Origin: a bacterium
GTDB lineage: Bacteria; Patescibacteriota; Patescibacteriia; 2-12-FULL-60-25
DNA length: 64,000 nt
Reading direction: 5' to 3'
NCBI GenBank assembly: GCA_021796435.1
Contig: JAJYXM010000016.1
Span: 1,367,580 to 1,431,579 of the forward strand
Both the position numbers and the translations under genes were made by a program. Positions within the stretch are counted from its first letter, which is position 1, and every line of letters starts with the position of its first letter. The notes beneath the pieces are model-generated. The model did no database searches. It had not been told where the DNA came from and saw only the letters and a program-made list of their open reading frames with translations. This document shows, in pieces, positions 1,343 to 62,012 of this stretch.

Positions 1343-2104
1343 ATGACACAATGGAACGTACTCCTCAAATCCCTTGGTTTTACCGATAGTGAAGCCAAAA
1401 TCTATCTCATTTCTTTGGAGATGGGTCCTTCCTCGGTGCAGGACATCGCCCGTAAAGCCAAAGTCTCACGCGTCACGACGTATGCAGTGATCGAATCCTT
1501 GGCGGAACGTGGGCTGATGAGCCAGGTGCAGAAAGGAAAGAAGACGAATTACACCGCAGAGTCTCCGGAGCGCCTCATCTCTTTCGTCCAATCACGCATG
1601 AAAGAGATGGAGAGCACGCTCAAAGAGGTGGAGACCGGCATCCAAGATCTGCGCCTGCTGCAACGCGGCGAAAAACCGGTAGTCAAACTTTTCGAAGGAG
1701 AAGAAGGCGTCAAGGCCATTGCCGGCGATATCGCCTCGAGCGACTGCGATGTGATCTATGAAATAGCGAATATCGAAGCGGTCAAGAACATCTTCCCTGA
1801 TTGGGTGGGACTGAAGGAATTACGCGAGGAGCTGAACCGCAAGAAGGTCAAGACGAAAGGCATCTATCTCTCGAAACCTGAGTTCACGATACGGCCATTC
1901 ACGGATGCGCACCTACTGCCTCAAGGCTACGATTTTTCTGGCGATATCGCGGTTTATGGCAATAAAATCGCCATGTATACCTTCAAAGGCAAACTCATAA
2001 GCGTACTGATAGAGAGCGCCGAACTAGCCCAGACATTGCGTGAACTGATGCGGCTAGGCATGACAGGAAAGAATCTGACAGAAAAAAAGGGACCCCAGGC
2101 GTAA
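1343..2104 (+). CDS. TrmB-family transcriptional regulator
   Basis: The N-terminal ~75 residues form a winged helix-turn-helix of the TrmB type (LGFTDSEAKIYL, then VSRVTTYAVIESLAERGL). A coiled linker of about 40 residues follows, then a C-terminal domain as in sugar-sensing TrmB relatives (VKLFEGEEGVKAI). Such proteins are cytoplasmic DNA-binding regulators; the ligand is unknown here. It starts 22 bp after the Mur ligase stop. A TATAGT box at 1329-1334 lies 8 nt before the ATG and there is no Shine-Dalgarno, suggesting a leaderless transcript. Its 3' end overlaps the terminator of the minus-strand RNA described at 2082-2537. Confidence 0.85.
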   Translation: MTQWNVLLKSLGFTDSEAKIYLISLEMGPSSVQDIARKAKVSRVTTYAVIESLAERGLMSQVQKGKKTNYTAESPERLISFVQSRMKEMESTLKEVETGIQDLRLLQRGEKPVVKLFEGEEGVKAIAGDIASSDCDVIYEIANIEAVKNIFPDWVGLKELREELNRKKVKTKGIYLSKPEFTIRPFTDAHLLPQGYDFSGDIAVYGNKIAMYTFKGKLISVLIESAELAQTLRELMRLGMTGKNLTEKKGPQA

Positions 2105-2121
2105 GCTTCAGCCCAGGGTCC
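2082..2121 (-). terminator. Terminator of the structured RNA
   Basis: Minus strand: GGACCC...GGGTCC stem (2089-2121) followed by seven T (complement of A2082-2088). The hairpin lies inside the last codons of the TrmB-type gene, so two opposed genes share this DNA. Confidence 0.7.
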
Positions 2122-2537
2122 GCACGGAGTTCCGTGTTTTCGACGTCACCTACAAGGTGGCGTCTTCGAAACGATTTTTCTCAGGAATGCATTCTCCCTA
2201 CCTCCATGTTACCTACATGGTGGGTTGCGGGAAGAACGAAGTTCGCTCTGAAGGCGGCCGGGTGTAACCTGGCGCCCATGAAGGATCGAAGTCACTGCCG
2301 TGTCGTCCTGGGCGCCAATACCTCGGCTTACCGAGGCATAAAATCTTCTGGGGCCGCTTACCATTCCGTAAGCCCGTTGAGTTTGACGTCGCTGCGGGAC
2401 GTTTCCCGTGCTCGAGCGCCGCTACATGCAAGGCATACGTCTGGTTCTTCAGCGCTTACCTCATCCGACCCAGTTCCCACTGGTGGACAGAGCATAATTC
2501 GCTCCAGTTTGGCACCCGGGGGACTTCCCGGGATGAC
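2082..2537 (-). ncRNA. Unidentified structured RNA, about 455 nt
   Basis: No convincing protein is encoded here on either strand. The minus strand has a consensus promoter just upstream and a GC-rich hairpin with seven U residues at the end. In between lie many short perfect hairpins: CCCGGG/CCCGGG (2516-2533), CGGGA/TCCCG near 2395-2408, GCTTAC/GTAAGC (2357-2374), CCTCGG/CCGAGG (2321-2336), an 8-bp GGCGCCCA/TGGGCGCC pair bracketing 2271-2316, CCATGT/ACATGG near 2202-2220, GACGYCACC/GGTGRCGTC (2142-2164) and CACGG/CCGTG near 2123-2136. I searched by eye for RNase P, tmRNA, SRP and 23S/16S core motifs and found none. Identity unknown. Confidence 0.6.
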
Positions 2538-2543
2538 AGCTTC

Positions 2544-2572
2544 AACATACAACTTGTTTAGGCATTTGTCAA
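2544..2572 (-). promoter_or_regulatory. Promoter of the structured RNA
   Basis: Minus strand: TTGACA (2567-2572), 17-bp spacer, TATGTT (2544-2549). Predicted start near 2537. A near-consensus sigma-70 promoter with no protein gene behind it. Confidence 0.7.
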
Positions 2573-3749: not shown

Positions 3750-3846
3750 TATGTCATGTTCGTAGTTTGCGTGCCGTAGCGCAATAAGCGACATCGTCCA
3801 GGAAATTTCCGCGACGAAAACTAACATAGAAAGGAGGTCGATAACC

Positions 3847-3936
3847 ATGCCAGCAAAGAAGAAAGCCAAGAAGGCCGCTCCTAAGAAGAAGGCCGTGAAG
3901 AAGACCAAGAAGAAAGCCACCAAAAAGAAGAAATAG
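3847..3936 (+). CDS. 29-residue lysine-rich basic peptide
   Basis: ATG at 3847 follows a strong Shine-Dalgarno (AAAGGAGGT). The product has 17 lysines in 29 residues; the rest are Ala, Pro, Thr and Val with the starting Met, in PAKKKA/PKKKA-like units resembling histone-H1-type tails. It has no hydrophobic segment, so it should be cytoplasmic and would bind nucleic acid or another polyanion by charge. It sits alone between its own promoter and a strong terminator, which argues that it is a real expressed gene and not a fragment. Whether it compacts DNA or binds ribosomes cannot be told from sequence. Confidence 0.7.
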   Translation: MPAKKKAKKAAPKKKAVKKTKKKATKKKK

Positions 3937-3957
3937 TTTTCTTCGAAAGGAGGAAAA

Positions 3958-25862: not shown

Positions 25863-26840
25863 ATGGAGATCCAAGACGGGACCAGACGCCTAGCGCAGCG
25901 GATCCGTGTGGATGCCGTAAAGCTCCAGGAACTGCGCGCACTTTCACCGAAGTATTCGACCCATCGTCAGCCCAAGCCCAGCGGCGGATTCAGGGTCATC
26001 GCCAAGCCGCATCCCGAGCTCCTCGGGATGCAACGCCTGGTGCTCAAGCGATACCTGAAGCACATGTTGCGTACGGTCTCGCCGTTTGTGCATGGCGGCA
26101 TGCGCGGGCGCGACTACGTGACCAACGCCCTTCCGCATCGCCGTGCCGAAGCGGCCTTGGTGATAGACCTCAAAAGCGCCTATGGCCAGGTGACCCGCGA
26201 GCGTCTGCACAAGACACTACAGAGAGCGGGCTGCGAAGGAGACATGTTGGAATGCTTGCTCGACCTGACAGTCGACGACGAGTTGGGTCTGCCGCAAGGT
26301 GCGGCGACCTCGAATGCACTCTTCAACCTGGCGTGCCACGAGCTGGATGAAGCACTGACGCAGATCGCGTTGCGCGAGGGCATGCGCTATACGCGCTACG
26401 TCGACGAGATCACCATCTCGGCGCGACGTGAGATTCCGCAGGTCCTACGCTTGCACATCACATCGACCATCGAGTCCTTGGGCTGGCAGGTCAATCCGCG
26501 TAAGGTGCGTTACTTCGAAGCTACGCACGGTGCGCTGGAGATCACCGGCGTCAGCGTGCACGACGAAGCGGTGACGCTGTCCAAGAGACGGATCGAGGAA
26601 CTGCGTACGCTGCTGCACCGGGCGCTCACCGACGCTACACTTTCCCGCGAGGTCATCGAGGGAAAGATGAGCCAGGTGCGCCGGGTCTATGGCGATAATC
26701 TTCCATGCCGTCTGCGACGAGCATACGCGAAGGCCTATTGGGCCCTCCGCGACCGTCGCAGGGCGCAACAGAAAGGAGTGATGCATGCGGAAGCACCTGA
26801 ACGGCGGATAGATTGGCCAGGCACCTCGACTGACTTCTGA
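25863..26840 (+). CDS. Retron/group-II-type reverse transcriptase (lone)
   Basis: RNA-directed DNA polymerase of 325 residues. Motifs: KPSGGFRVIAKPH (RT1, ~38-50), VHGGMRGRDYVTNAL (RT2, ~76-90), catalytic Asp102 in LVIDLKSAYGQV (RT3/A), LPQGAATSNALFNL (RT4, ~143-156), YVDEITIS (RT5/C, 179-186), then NPRKV and ITGVSV (RT6-7). The catalytic pair is DE rather than DD. LPQGxxxS argues against a diversity-generating retroelement type. No maturase, endonuclease or effector domain is attached. AAGGAG precedes the ATG. Only 94 bp separate it from the divergent gene upstream, leaving little room for a normal retron ncRNA. Confidence 0.85.
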   Translation: MEIQDGTRRLAQRIRVDAVKLQELRALSPKYSTHRQPKPSGGFRVIAKPHPELLGMQRLVLKRYLKHMLRTVSPFVHGGMRGRDYVTNALPHRRAEAALVIDLKSAYGQVTRERLHKTLQRAGCEGDMLECLLDLTVDDELGLPQGAATSNALFNLACHELDEALTQIALREGMRYTRYVDEITISARREIPQVLRLHITSTIESLGWQVNPRKVRYFEATHGALEITGVSVHDEAVTLSKRRIEELRTLLHRALTDATLSREVIEGKMSQVRRVYGDNLPCRLRRAYAKAYWALRDRRRAQQKGVMHAEAPERRIDWPGTSTDF

Positions 26841-52738: not shown

Positions 52739-55420
52739 TCACCGTGGAAAACCGGAGGCTCTTGCCACCGCAGGCCGGAGCAAATCCGGCGGTTGTGGTT
52801 CGAACAGGTCGATGAACCACTTCAAGTCCTCCTGGCAGAAGGACGCCCGACCCAACCTCTCCTTCGTCTTGGGCAAGCCAAGGGCCGAAGAATTGGAAGG
52901 GCTGGTACCCGCCGGAAAGATACCCGCGAAGTCGAACATGACCCCTAGACGCGTCAGTTCGAACAGGATCCAGACTTTTCGGGCGCTGTTCAACAGCAGC
53001 GCTCCGCCGTCCTTCAACAAAACCTCTGCTGTATTGAAGAAGGTCTCCTGCACCGCCTTGGCATCGAAAGCCGGCGAGTACGGCTGCGTCTCCATCCGCC
53101 TCACGACACCGGTTGCGGCCGGAGGCGTAGAGACGATTTGCGGTACGGGCGACGGCTTAGGGAAGGCTGGCGTGCGTGCATCTTCGAGTTGCGCCTCGAG
53201 CGATGCCACGGTCTCCACTAGCGTATCGCGTTCGGTCGTCGTGGCAACGAACTGACGCTCGAGCCTCTTCTGCATCGCCGTTGCCTTACCGAGCTTTTGC
53301 CGCAGACTTTTGCGTTGTGCCATCGAGAGCTCCAAGGCAACGGAGTAGCGCGCGAACCGCTCCACCATGCCATGCAACTTGGCGCGCAGATCGAAGTTTT
53401 CCGCGATGGCGACGCGCGATGCTTCGCGCTGTGCAGCCAAGTCCGCTTCGAGCGCGGTCACCTTGGGATCCAGATCACGCAATCGCTTGCCGGCTTCCTC
53501 TAGAAGTACGCGCGCCTTGTTGATGACGCCTTTGGATCCGTCGATGGCGATGATCTCCTCGAGTGTCATCTTGTTGGGGTCGTAACCGAGCAGCGCGAGT
53601 AGGCCACCCATGATTTCGCGCCACTTGAGGTTGAGCTCGAAACTATCCGCTTCCCGAGTGTCGAGCTCGGTCTGACGGCGCGCCTGCTCGGCCTCCGTGA
53701 TGGCAACGGCAGCCTCACGTGCTTTGATCTCGATCTCGCGTTCGCCCAGATCAGCCTCCAAAACGCTCAAACGATCCTGCTGCGCTTGCGCGTACCTTGC
53801 CGTGAGCCGGGCTTTGCCGAGCTCTGTAGCCGCGTCGTTCCGATCACGTTGCGCCTCTGCGTAGAGCTTGGCTTCCGTGAACTCGAAACCCGCAAGCCTC
53901 TTGAACAGGACGTCGAACTCGGCCTGCGCCGCGGCTTTCCGATCGACCACCTTCATGCGATCTTGCGCCAGCTCGGTGAAGCGCGTTTCGCACGCATCGA
54001 GCTGATAGCGCAGATCAGGCGCGTTAGCCGGATCGTTCTGCTGCGCTTCGGCGAAGCGGGCTTTCAGTTCGCCGTATGGCCCGTGCAGGTCAGTCGTCTC
54101 GTTGTCGATGAGGATGAGATCGGCGTTCGCTGCGTTCAGGATTTCGTAGAGCTCAGCGCAATGCTTACGGTCCTTCTCTTCGGCCAGGTTCTTTTCGTCG
54201 AGGGTCTTTTGGAGCGCTTCGACCTCGTCGTTGCGCTGCGTGACTTCGGACAGCAGCCCCTTGACCTTTTTTTCGGCCTCGTCCTTGCCACGATTGGCTT
54301 GGGCGATCTGGACATAGACCTCGTCGAGGTGCCCGGAGATCAGGTTGAAGAGCTCGAGCTGCTTGTAGGTCGCCGGGATGACGACGTTCCAGCGCTTGGC
54401 GCACTTGACCATCGCATCAGTCACCACCTGCATGGCCGCAGCGACGCTGCGCAGCCTTTCATCAGAGGACTTCGTGGCTGACTTGGCCGTATCGAGTTGC
54501 CCCTTCAGGGACGCAACAGCATCTTCCTTGTGGGCGAGGTCGGTCTGCAGCTCGCCGATCTTCTCGGTAGAGAATCGAGCGGCGACTGCGGCTCTGCGGT
54601 GAACTACGTACAACACGATCGCGAGCACGAGCGATAGCCCGATGAACGAGACAAGCGCGAGGATGAGCCAGAAGTTGTCCTGGGCTTTCGGCGCCTCGGA
54701 CTGCTCGGCCTTGGCTTCAGGCACCACGACCTTGATTCCGTTTCCACGGAGGGCGCCGATGACGCAACTGAAGTTGCCGTAGCACTTCTTGAGCTCGGTG
54801 ACGAGCGACCCATCCGAGGATGGAGGAGTCGTGTTCCCGGACGGGGGCGTAGCGCCAGCGGGCGGCGGAGCCGCATTGTCGCCGGTGGTTGCGCCCAATT
54901 GCGCAGCGATGCGCTTTACGCACTCCGCGTCCTTGCAGGCGCCGATCTGATCAGCCAGCTCCAACTTCTTGTCGGGCGGGATGACGTGTCGACCACGCAG
55001 CTTGATGACCGTGCCGGGAAGGACGTAGACGTAGCGTTCCTTGCCGTCTTCCGGCTTGCAGTTGAACCAAGCGCGGTCGATGCGCCGCTCTTCGAAGGAG
55101 CGGATCTTGCCGTCCGCGAAGCCATCGCCAAGCGTGTGGCATAGGGCGATGGTCAGATCGCGATTCTCTTCGCGCAGCGCCAACTGATCCAGCGGCGGAT
55201 CGAACTTGAACTTCTCGTTCACCGCCCGGATGAAGGTCGGCGTCTGGAGATTTATGCCGGGTGCGATCTTCACGTAGACCGCGTCGGCCTCTGCATTGCC
55301 GGATGGTGGTTTGACCTGCCACCAGTCCTGCCCTTCGATGGCTGACTGCGCATGAGCCGGGAAGGCCACGAACAGCAAGACGACGAAAGGCGCCAGAAAC
55401 TGCACGAATCGTTTCAGCAT
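52739..55420 (-). CDS. Large coiled-coil membrane protein (893 aa)
   Basis: Unknown family. ATG 55420 with GGGAG upstream. Signal peptide (FVQFLAPFVVLLFVAFPAHAQS), an exported N-terminal domain (~25-225) with four Cys in two pairs, a Pro/Gly/Thr-rich linker (~180-205), a transmembrane helix at ~250 (WLILALVSFIGLSLVLAIVLYVV) and then ~500 residues of almost continuous heptad sequence rich in A, E, L, R and Q on the cytoplasmic side. The last ~140 residues are globular (VQETFFNTAEVLL, ARKVWILFELTRLGVMFDFAG). The layout suggests a scaffold or tether linking envelope to cytoplasm (inference). Unusually large for this genome. Confidence 0.78.
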   Translation of the reverse strand: MLKRFVQFLAPFVVLLFVAFPAHAQSAIEGQDWWQVKPPSGNAEADAVYVKIAPGINLQTPTFIRAVNEKFKFDPPLDQLALREENRDLTIALCHTLGDGFADGKIRSFEERRIDRAWFNCKPEDGKERYVYVLPGTVIKLRGRHVIPPDKKLELADQIGACKDAECVKRIAAQLGATTGDNAAPPPAGATPPSGNTTPPSSDGSLVTELKKCYGNFSCVIGALRGNGIKVVVPEAKAEQSEAPKAQDNFWLILALVSFIGLSLVLAIVLYVVHRRAAVAARFSTEKIGELQTDLAHKEDAVASLKGQLDTAKSATKSSDERLRSVAAAMQVVTDAMVKCAKRWNVVIPATYKQLELFNLISGHLDEVYVQIAQANRGKDEAEKKVKGLLSEVTQRNDEVEALQKTLDEKNLAEEKDRKHCAELYEILNAANADLILIDNETTDLHGPYGELKARFAEAQQNDPANAPDLRYQLDACETRFTELAQDRMKVVDRKAAAQAEFDVLFKRLAGFEFTEAKLYAEAQRDRNDAATELGKARLTARYAQAQQDRLSVLEADLGEREIEIKAREAAVAITEAEQARRQTELDTREADSFELNLKWREIMGGLLALLGYDPNKMTLEEIIAIDGSKGVINKARVLLEEAGKRLRDLDPKVTALEADLAAQREASRVAIAENFDLRAKLHGMVERFARYSVALELSMAQRKSLRQKLGKATAMQKRLERQFVATTTERDTLVETVASLEAQLEDARTPAFPKPSPVPQIVSTPPAATGVVRRMETQPYSPAFDAKAVQETFFNTAEVLLKDGGALLLNSARKVWILFELTRLGVMFDFAGIFPAGTSPSNSSALGLPKTKERLGRASFCQEDLKWFIDLFEPQPPDLLRPAVARASGFPR

Positions 55421-61987: not shown

Positions 61988-62012
61988 CGGCTCGGTGGCC
62001 GGGATGACAGCG
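61988..62012. repeat. Palindromic repeat with GGGATGACAGC end
   Basis: CCCGGCTCGGTGGCCGGGATGACAGC: same 'hairpin + GGGATGACAGC' form as 2513-2540, where it starts the structured RNA. Confidence 0.5.

Follow-up and report, generated by a model that had tools for sequence, protein, structure and literature searches.

Several known systems place a regulator gene beside a tiny peptide gene. In Rap-Phr and in the AimR-AimP arbitrium system, members of a subclade share the peptide, and other subclades have a different one. Phr and AimP are precursors of 30-45 residues that are exported and then cut, and their receptors are TPR proteins. Dual-function small RNAs, such as SgrS/SgrT, combine a structured RNA with a small ORF. 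Bacterial minigenes have a Shine-Dalgarno (SD) sequence followed by a complete ORF that is only 2-6 codons long. Lambda bar, the leader of EHEC LEE4 espADB and mg2 of axe-txe are examples of such minigenes or mini-ORFs (PMC8708949). Minigenes cause peptidyl-tRNA drop-off, and a ribosome on the six-codon mini-ORF stabilises the LEE4 mRNA (PMC8708949). The named minigenes affect the gene downstream of them in cis, or have been described through peptidyl-tRNA toxicity. Here we describe an RNA gene next to a TrmB-family regulator, in a stretch of 64,000 nt (the window) from an ultra-small bacterium. The features of this locus are as follows.

1343..2104, plus strand: TrmB-family regulator of 253 aa (Pfam PF01978, 2.7e-14), the convergent partner gene
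2567..2572, minus strand: -35 box TTGACA, a promoter match kept in G001, G002 and G003
2544..2549, minus strand: -10 box TATGTT after a 17-nt spacer, identical in G001 and G003
2082..2537, minus strand: predicted RNA transcript of about 456 nt, with the start placed 7 nt past the -10 box and the end at the T run
2515..2532, minus strand: 5' hairpin CCCGGG-AAGUCC-CCCGGG, resembling the REP-like GTCATCCCGG motifs enriched in the window
2358..2495, minus strand: small ORF with an SD-like GGAG at 2505-2502
2248..2376, minus strand: most conserved structured domain, with the closing stem GCGGCC/GGCCGC
2201..2205, minus strand: SD sequence GGAGG, four of its five bases predicted to be paired in hairpin 2223-2201
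2181..2192, minus strand: mini-ORF ATG CAT TCC TGA (Met-His-Ser-stop), 8 nt past the SD and identical in G001
2082..2121, minus strand: intrinsic terminator, GGACCCTGGGC...GCCTGGGGTCC followed by T7, overlapping the last TrmB codons

The initial annotation had described a stretch of about 455 nt bracketed by a consensus promoter and an intrinsic terminator, and both elements are present and kept in G001, a genome of the same genus. The promoter, TTGACA-17-TATGTT, matches the consensus at 10 of 12 positions. The terminator (2121-2082) is embedded in the 3' end of the TrmB gene, as had been stated, since the gene ends at 2104 on the plus strand. The evidence for both elements is their conservation, because the numbers of promoters (3 against 2.8 expected) and terminators (3 against 3.6) found by scanning are only at chance level. 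The description of the RNA as packed with hairpins also holds: its minimum free energy is -192.2, against -160.8 +/- 6.6 for shuffled sequences (z -4.8). The domain at 2248..2376 contains the hairpin ATGCCTCGG-UAAG-CCGAGGUAU and a long hairpin, GGCGCCC...GGGCGCC. None of 4227 Rfam models reached its gathering score at the RNA, nothing meaningful appeared up to E = 10, and only tRNAs were found by Rfam at 20 homologous or analogous loci. The RNA is thus none of the housekeeping RNAs, in line with the first reading, and RNase P RNA and tmRNA (91 bits) are located elsewhere in this genome (G000). The RNase P RNA, at G000:C1:1266348-1266945, is a full-length match that scores 85.8 bits, below the gathering score of 100 bits, and is unusually long (598 nt). 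No copy of the window RNA was found in its own genome. It shares size, its own promoter and much structure with RNase P, tmRNA, OLE, ROOL, GOLLD and raiA RNAs, and differs from them in the absence of an Rfam match. The window RNA is a structured, independently promoted and terminated RNA outside all Rfam families.

The start of the small ORF at 2358..2495 is kept in G001 (SD AGGAG), but the frames differ (45 against 23 codons), and the coding value of this ORF is therefore doubtful. It may occupy the place of the first mini-ORF of other RNAs described below. The REP-like GTCATCCCGG motif occurs at 15 sites in the window with at most one mismatch, against 5.0 expected, including 2528-2537, 54373-54382 and 61999-62008. 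Since the 5' copy, seen in G003 too, may partly be a REP-like repeat, it was not used as proof of homology. Elsewhere in the window, a 325-aa ORF at 25863-26837 has a reverse transcriptase domain (PF00078, 2.8e-19), and a very short lysine-rich histone-like ORF (MPAKKKAKKAAPKKKAVKKTKKKATKKKK) at 3845-3937, with a strong promoter and terminator, is kept in G001.

Among 144 relatives, only G001 matches the RNA over its whole length; the position of the RNA is shared, and so are its promoter and terminator. The identity is 79.6% without gaps. In comparison, identity between the two genomes at four-fold sites is 52% for TrmB and 41% for Mur ligase, and the flank upstream of the promoter is 50% identical. 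No long reading frame within the RNA is conserved between G000 and G001. These values indicate that the window RNA is under selection. A covariation check on homologues had been proposed: of 118 pairs predicted by RNAalifold from G000 and G001, five are changed on both sides, which is hardly a test with two alignable homologues, and a structure cannot be proved by comparison from two sequences only. When the central domain (R1) was made into a covariance model, the search recovered G000 and G001 and no further member. A structural resemblance to G002 seen by eye is unsupported, as the model misses G002, and short blastn matches in L003 and L004 lie in coding genes and are due to chance.

Because the covariance model found no further member, relatives were sought by synteny. 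Downstream of the TrmB orthologue, most genomes of the family have a TTGACA-type promoter in convergent orientation, and the predicted transcript of 250-800 nt ends at TrmB. The sequences of these RNAs can no longer be aligned. What they have in common is a strong SD with a complete ORF of 3-6 codons. In the window RNA, the SD and the Met-His-Ser (MHS) mini-ORF form the best-kept block in the 3' third, and 60 nt separate the stop codon from the terminator stem downstream. The known minigenes, with their 2-6 codons behind an SD, have the same arrangement. The initial annotation had called the stretch non-coding, which is probably wrong, as the conserved 3' block consists of an SD and a three-codon ORF. 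Counterparts of MHS in the family are MHN (G002), MFNL (G003) and MHSFG (G011), the SD in G002 and G003 being weaker or farther from the ORF; MLGGG, MVTG, MGMTGG and so on are further examples. The mini-ORF of the window RNA is very probably translated. Sequestration of the SD is not a special feature of these RNAs (mean pairing 0.65 against 0.72 for SDs of ordinary genes, p 0.43).

The mini-ORF hypothesis was drawn from nine loci, and later sets served as tests. In other families of the class, convergent mini-ORFs were found at 13 of 21 and then 13 of 29 loci, and sense-strand mini-ORFs in the same sets numbered one and two. In the TrmB group q3, a mini-ORF was present in 1 of 26. The genome-wide intergenic background is 0.06-0.14 mini-ORFs per kb and strand. 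On the TrmB tree, clade A comprises 65 loci from Paceibacteria. When strong-SD ORFs of 2-7 codons on the strand facing the TrmB gene were counted, 44 of these loci carried 54 mini-ORFs, against 2.6 +/- 1.4 expected from dinucleotide shuffles, and the opposite strand of the 65 loci carried none. The remaining 21 have no strict mini-ORF, although G002 and G003, as described above, have one of a looser kind. ORFs behind a strong SD in clade A have at most seven codons in 60 of 85 cases (25% expected); their lengths peak sharply at 3-5 codons, and ORFs of 8 to 18 codons are nearly absent. Mini-ORF presence requires 22 changes on the TrmB tree, compared with 46.7 in shuffles (minimum 36), and thus follows the tree. 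In family f91, sense-strand mini-ORFs may be something else, because they overlap ORFs of 15-26 codons, several of which start with MRW, MKW or MSW. Another mini-ORF, close to a tRNA gene (position 239261 of the own genome), was attributed to chance.

A purely structural non-coding RNA with a coincidental mini-ORF would agree with the stable fold, the strong conservation and the lack of a long ORF. The excess of mini-ORFs over expectation, their absence from the other strand and the codon-level conservation described below make this very improbable. Comparison across genomes establishes the RNA gene, its promoter, its terminator, the mini-ORF and a specific link to one TrmB clade at the sequence level. 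It is highly likely that the stand-alone RNA gene and the adjacent TrmB-family regulator form a two-gene module.

Many RNAs outside the window's family contain two mini-ORFs, one about 50-130 nt past the promoter and the other nearer the terminator. The pairs include MNG/MGG, MNN/MNS, MF/MW, MSNG/MGNG and MFSGG/MSSGG, as well as MAGG/MQGG, which is MAGGS/MQGGG in a sister species. The two ORFs are of equal length in 13 of 19 pairs (permutation p 0.0002), a value that is only indicative because related loci are not independent. Glycine accounts for 100 of the 258 mini-ORF residues (39%).

A second TrmB gene in the own genome (G000:C1:256424-257140) is accompanied by a convergent RNA with the mini-ORF MGSGS, and its orthologous loci have MGSGS, MGSGR, MGSGQ or MGSGG. 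Four genera retain this peptide (MGSGx) while its codons change synonymously; the serine codon is AGC in five of the seven loci and TCC or TCA in two. The ORF pattern matches seven times in 193 genomes, each time at the paralogous TrmB gene, and the reversed pattern has no match in the same genomes. In several MGSGx loci, a CCUCC arm pairs with the SD. Codon changes between related mini-ORFs are synonymous in 13 cases and non-synonymous in three, all three in the last codon. With 27% synonymous changes expected under neutrality, P is about 1e-5, which is optimistic because only pairs with alignable peptides were used. Other sister pairs (L143/L166, L017/L019, L018/L020 and L053/L056) have no alignable peptide. 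Since the aligned pairs were chosen and the peptides of other sister pairs are unrelated, the pattern is one of peptides conserved within subclades and replaced between them. Judged from these codon changes, the peptide is under selection in at least one subclade.

The codon changes also bear on the main rival to a feedback of peptide or translation on TrmB. The mini-ORF could be a ribosome-loading device, in which a parked ribosome protects the RNA or sequesters ribosomes or tRNAs. The peptide would then be irrelevant, the structured RNA would be the working molecule and TrmB would control the promoter. The LEE4 mini-ORF and minigene drop-off are precedents (PMC8708949). The window RNA is conserved mainly in the structured domain away from the ORF, and the peptide is freely replaced between subclades, both as expected of such a device. 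However, synonymous codon changes with residues kept, the retention of MGSG across genera and the strong glycine bias point to selection on residues, and we consider ribosome loading possible but rather unlikely.

The orientation of the RNA bears on a role in antisense control. The initial annotation had suggested that the RNA could also act as an antisense 3' partner of TrmB. In family f9 (L146, L169 and L181), the equivalent RNA follows TrmB in the same orientation and has a promoter of its own, so the convergent overlap is absent from these members and antisense action on TrmB is not the shared function. The f9 mini-ORFs read MGGV, MGGA or MMGGA, and L146 has a second ORF that starts with GTG and ends in NGV. 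As the RNA still adjoins TrmB in this family, the linkage between the two outlives their orientation. Translation could control antisense transcription in another way, if ribosomes on the mini-ORF permitted read-through of the terminator and the resulting antisense RNA lowered TrmB expression. Most loci are convergent, the terminator overlaps the TrmB 3' end, and the stop codon of MGSGx almost directly precedes the terminator hairpin, all of which would suit read-through; the tandem f9 RNAs and the distance of the window's stop codon from the terminator stem do not, and this mechanism seems improbable. Nor is the mini-ORF that of a leader-peptide attenuator, as only the antisense strand of TrmB lies downstream of the terminator. 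In f91 (L183, L187, L189 and L199), a further promoter and a shared structured sequence, GTTCCG...GGAATCA-CCCCCTCC...GCTGGCGGAACA, lie about 300-500 nt past the TrmB stop, apparently another RNA.

In the AlphaFold2 model of the regulator (pLDDT 83.6), a winged helix and a long helix are accompanied by an alpha/beta PLD-like C-terminal domain, in an arrangement that is uncertain because pTM is 0.52. Foldseek matched the model to TrmBL2, TrmB, the TrmB sugar-binding domain and the PLD-type nuclease NucT. Archaeal TrmB and TrmBL2 thus share the TrmB winged helix and the PLD-like domain with the window regulator. In archaeal TrmB, the corresponding C-terminal region binds ligand, and the model suggests that the window TrmB has a C-terminal domain of this ligand-binding kind. 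No TrmB operator was found, and a candidate palindromic operator upstream of the RNA promoter was not consistent. A conserved protein of about 67 aa without a Pfam match adjoins the module outside the window in four genomes from two families (G002 L015:3203-3403; G003 L016:707-507, minus; G010 L020:3010-3210; L145:693-496, minus). It ends in ...LTPTGxxRR in three of them, and its gene is divergent from the RNA promoter in the three that belong to family f1. This gene is a possible target of the module.

The best explanation as a whole is a module in which the mini-ORF is translated and TrmB receives feedback from the product or from the translation itself; we give this an even chance. A strong sigma-70-type promoter would drive a structured RNA, in the window 456 nt long. 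Close to its terminator, this RNA has a strong SD and a complete 2-6-codon ORF, here Met-His-Ser. Many relatives have a second mini-ORF of the same length near the RNA 5' end. Ribosomes would translate the mini-ORF, and the formylated peptide of 3-6 residues, or the translation event itself, may act as a signal to the adjacent regulator, and the RNA promoter is itself probably under TrmB control. The feedback step taken by itself is tentative. It is more doubtful still that formylated peptides of 2-6 residues, fMet-His-Ser in the window, serve as cognate ligands for the TrmB regulators next to them, and a simple ligand model does not account for two different peptides of equal length in one RNA. 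The extensive conserved structure in the window RNA counts against the best explanation, as it would not be needed for a peptide gene. The 21 clade-A loci lacking a strict mini-ORF, the sister pairs whose peptides cannot be aligned and the negative operator result speak against it as well.

Compared with Rap-Phr and AimR-AimP, the TrmB module shows a similar gene adjacency and a similar clade-wise distribution of peptides. Unlike Phr and AimP, its ORF encodes 2-6 residues directly, too few for an exported and processed precursor or for an export signal, and the regulator is a TrmB protein. Unlike the minigenes, the TrmB-paired RNA forms a gene by itself that ends in a terminator and has no gene downstream. 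Its link to a regulator extends over many families, it often has two equal-length ORFs, and it is conserved at the peptide level. Dual-function small RNAs resemble it as structured RNAs carrying a small ORF; to our knowledge, they encode longer peptides and have neither a TrmB link nor paired mini-ORFs. We know of no description of a mini-ORF RNA beside archaeal TrmB genes, and a search of open-licence papers found none, the comparison being one by literature. Nor did a search of this kind turn up a stand-alone RNA that is linked to a regulator and carries ORFs of 2-6 codons. We rate such an RNA as a new kind, with a mechanism that we infer.

A conserved class of genes of 2-6 codons would be missed everywhere, because such genes lie below every annotation cut-off. 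A stand-alone RNA with paired mini-ORFs beside a transcription regulator offers a direct test of whether such short peptides can be selected gene products, and it would be a first regulatory circuit of its kind in these mostly uncultivated bacteria. The layout might be a new way of pairing a regulator with a tiny peptide. If the ligand reading is true, it would be a regulator-peptide system without precursor or processing, present in many Paceibacteria families and diversified by clade.
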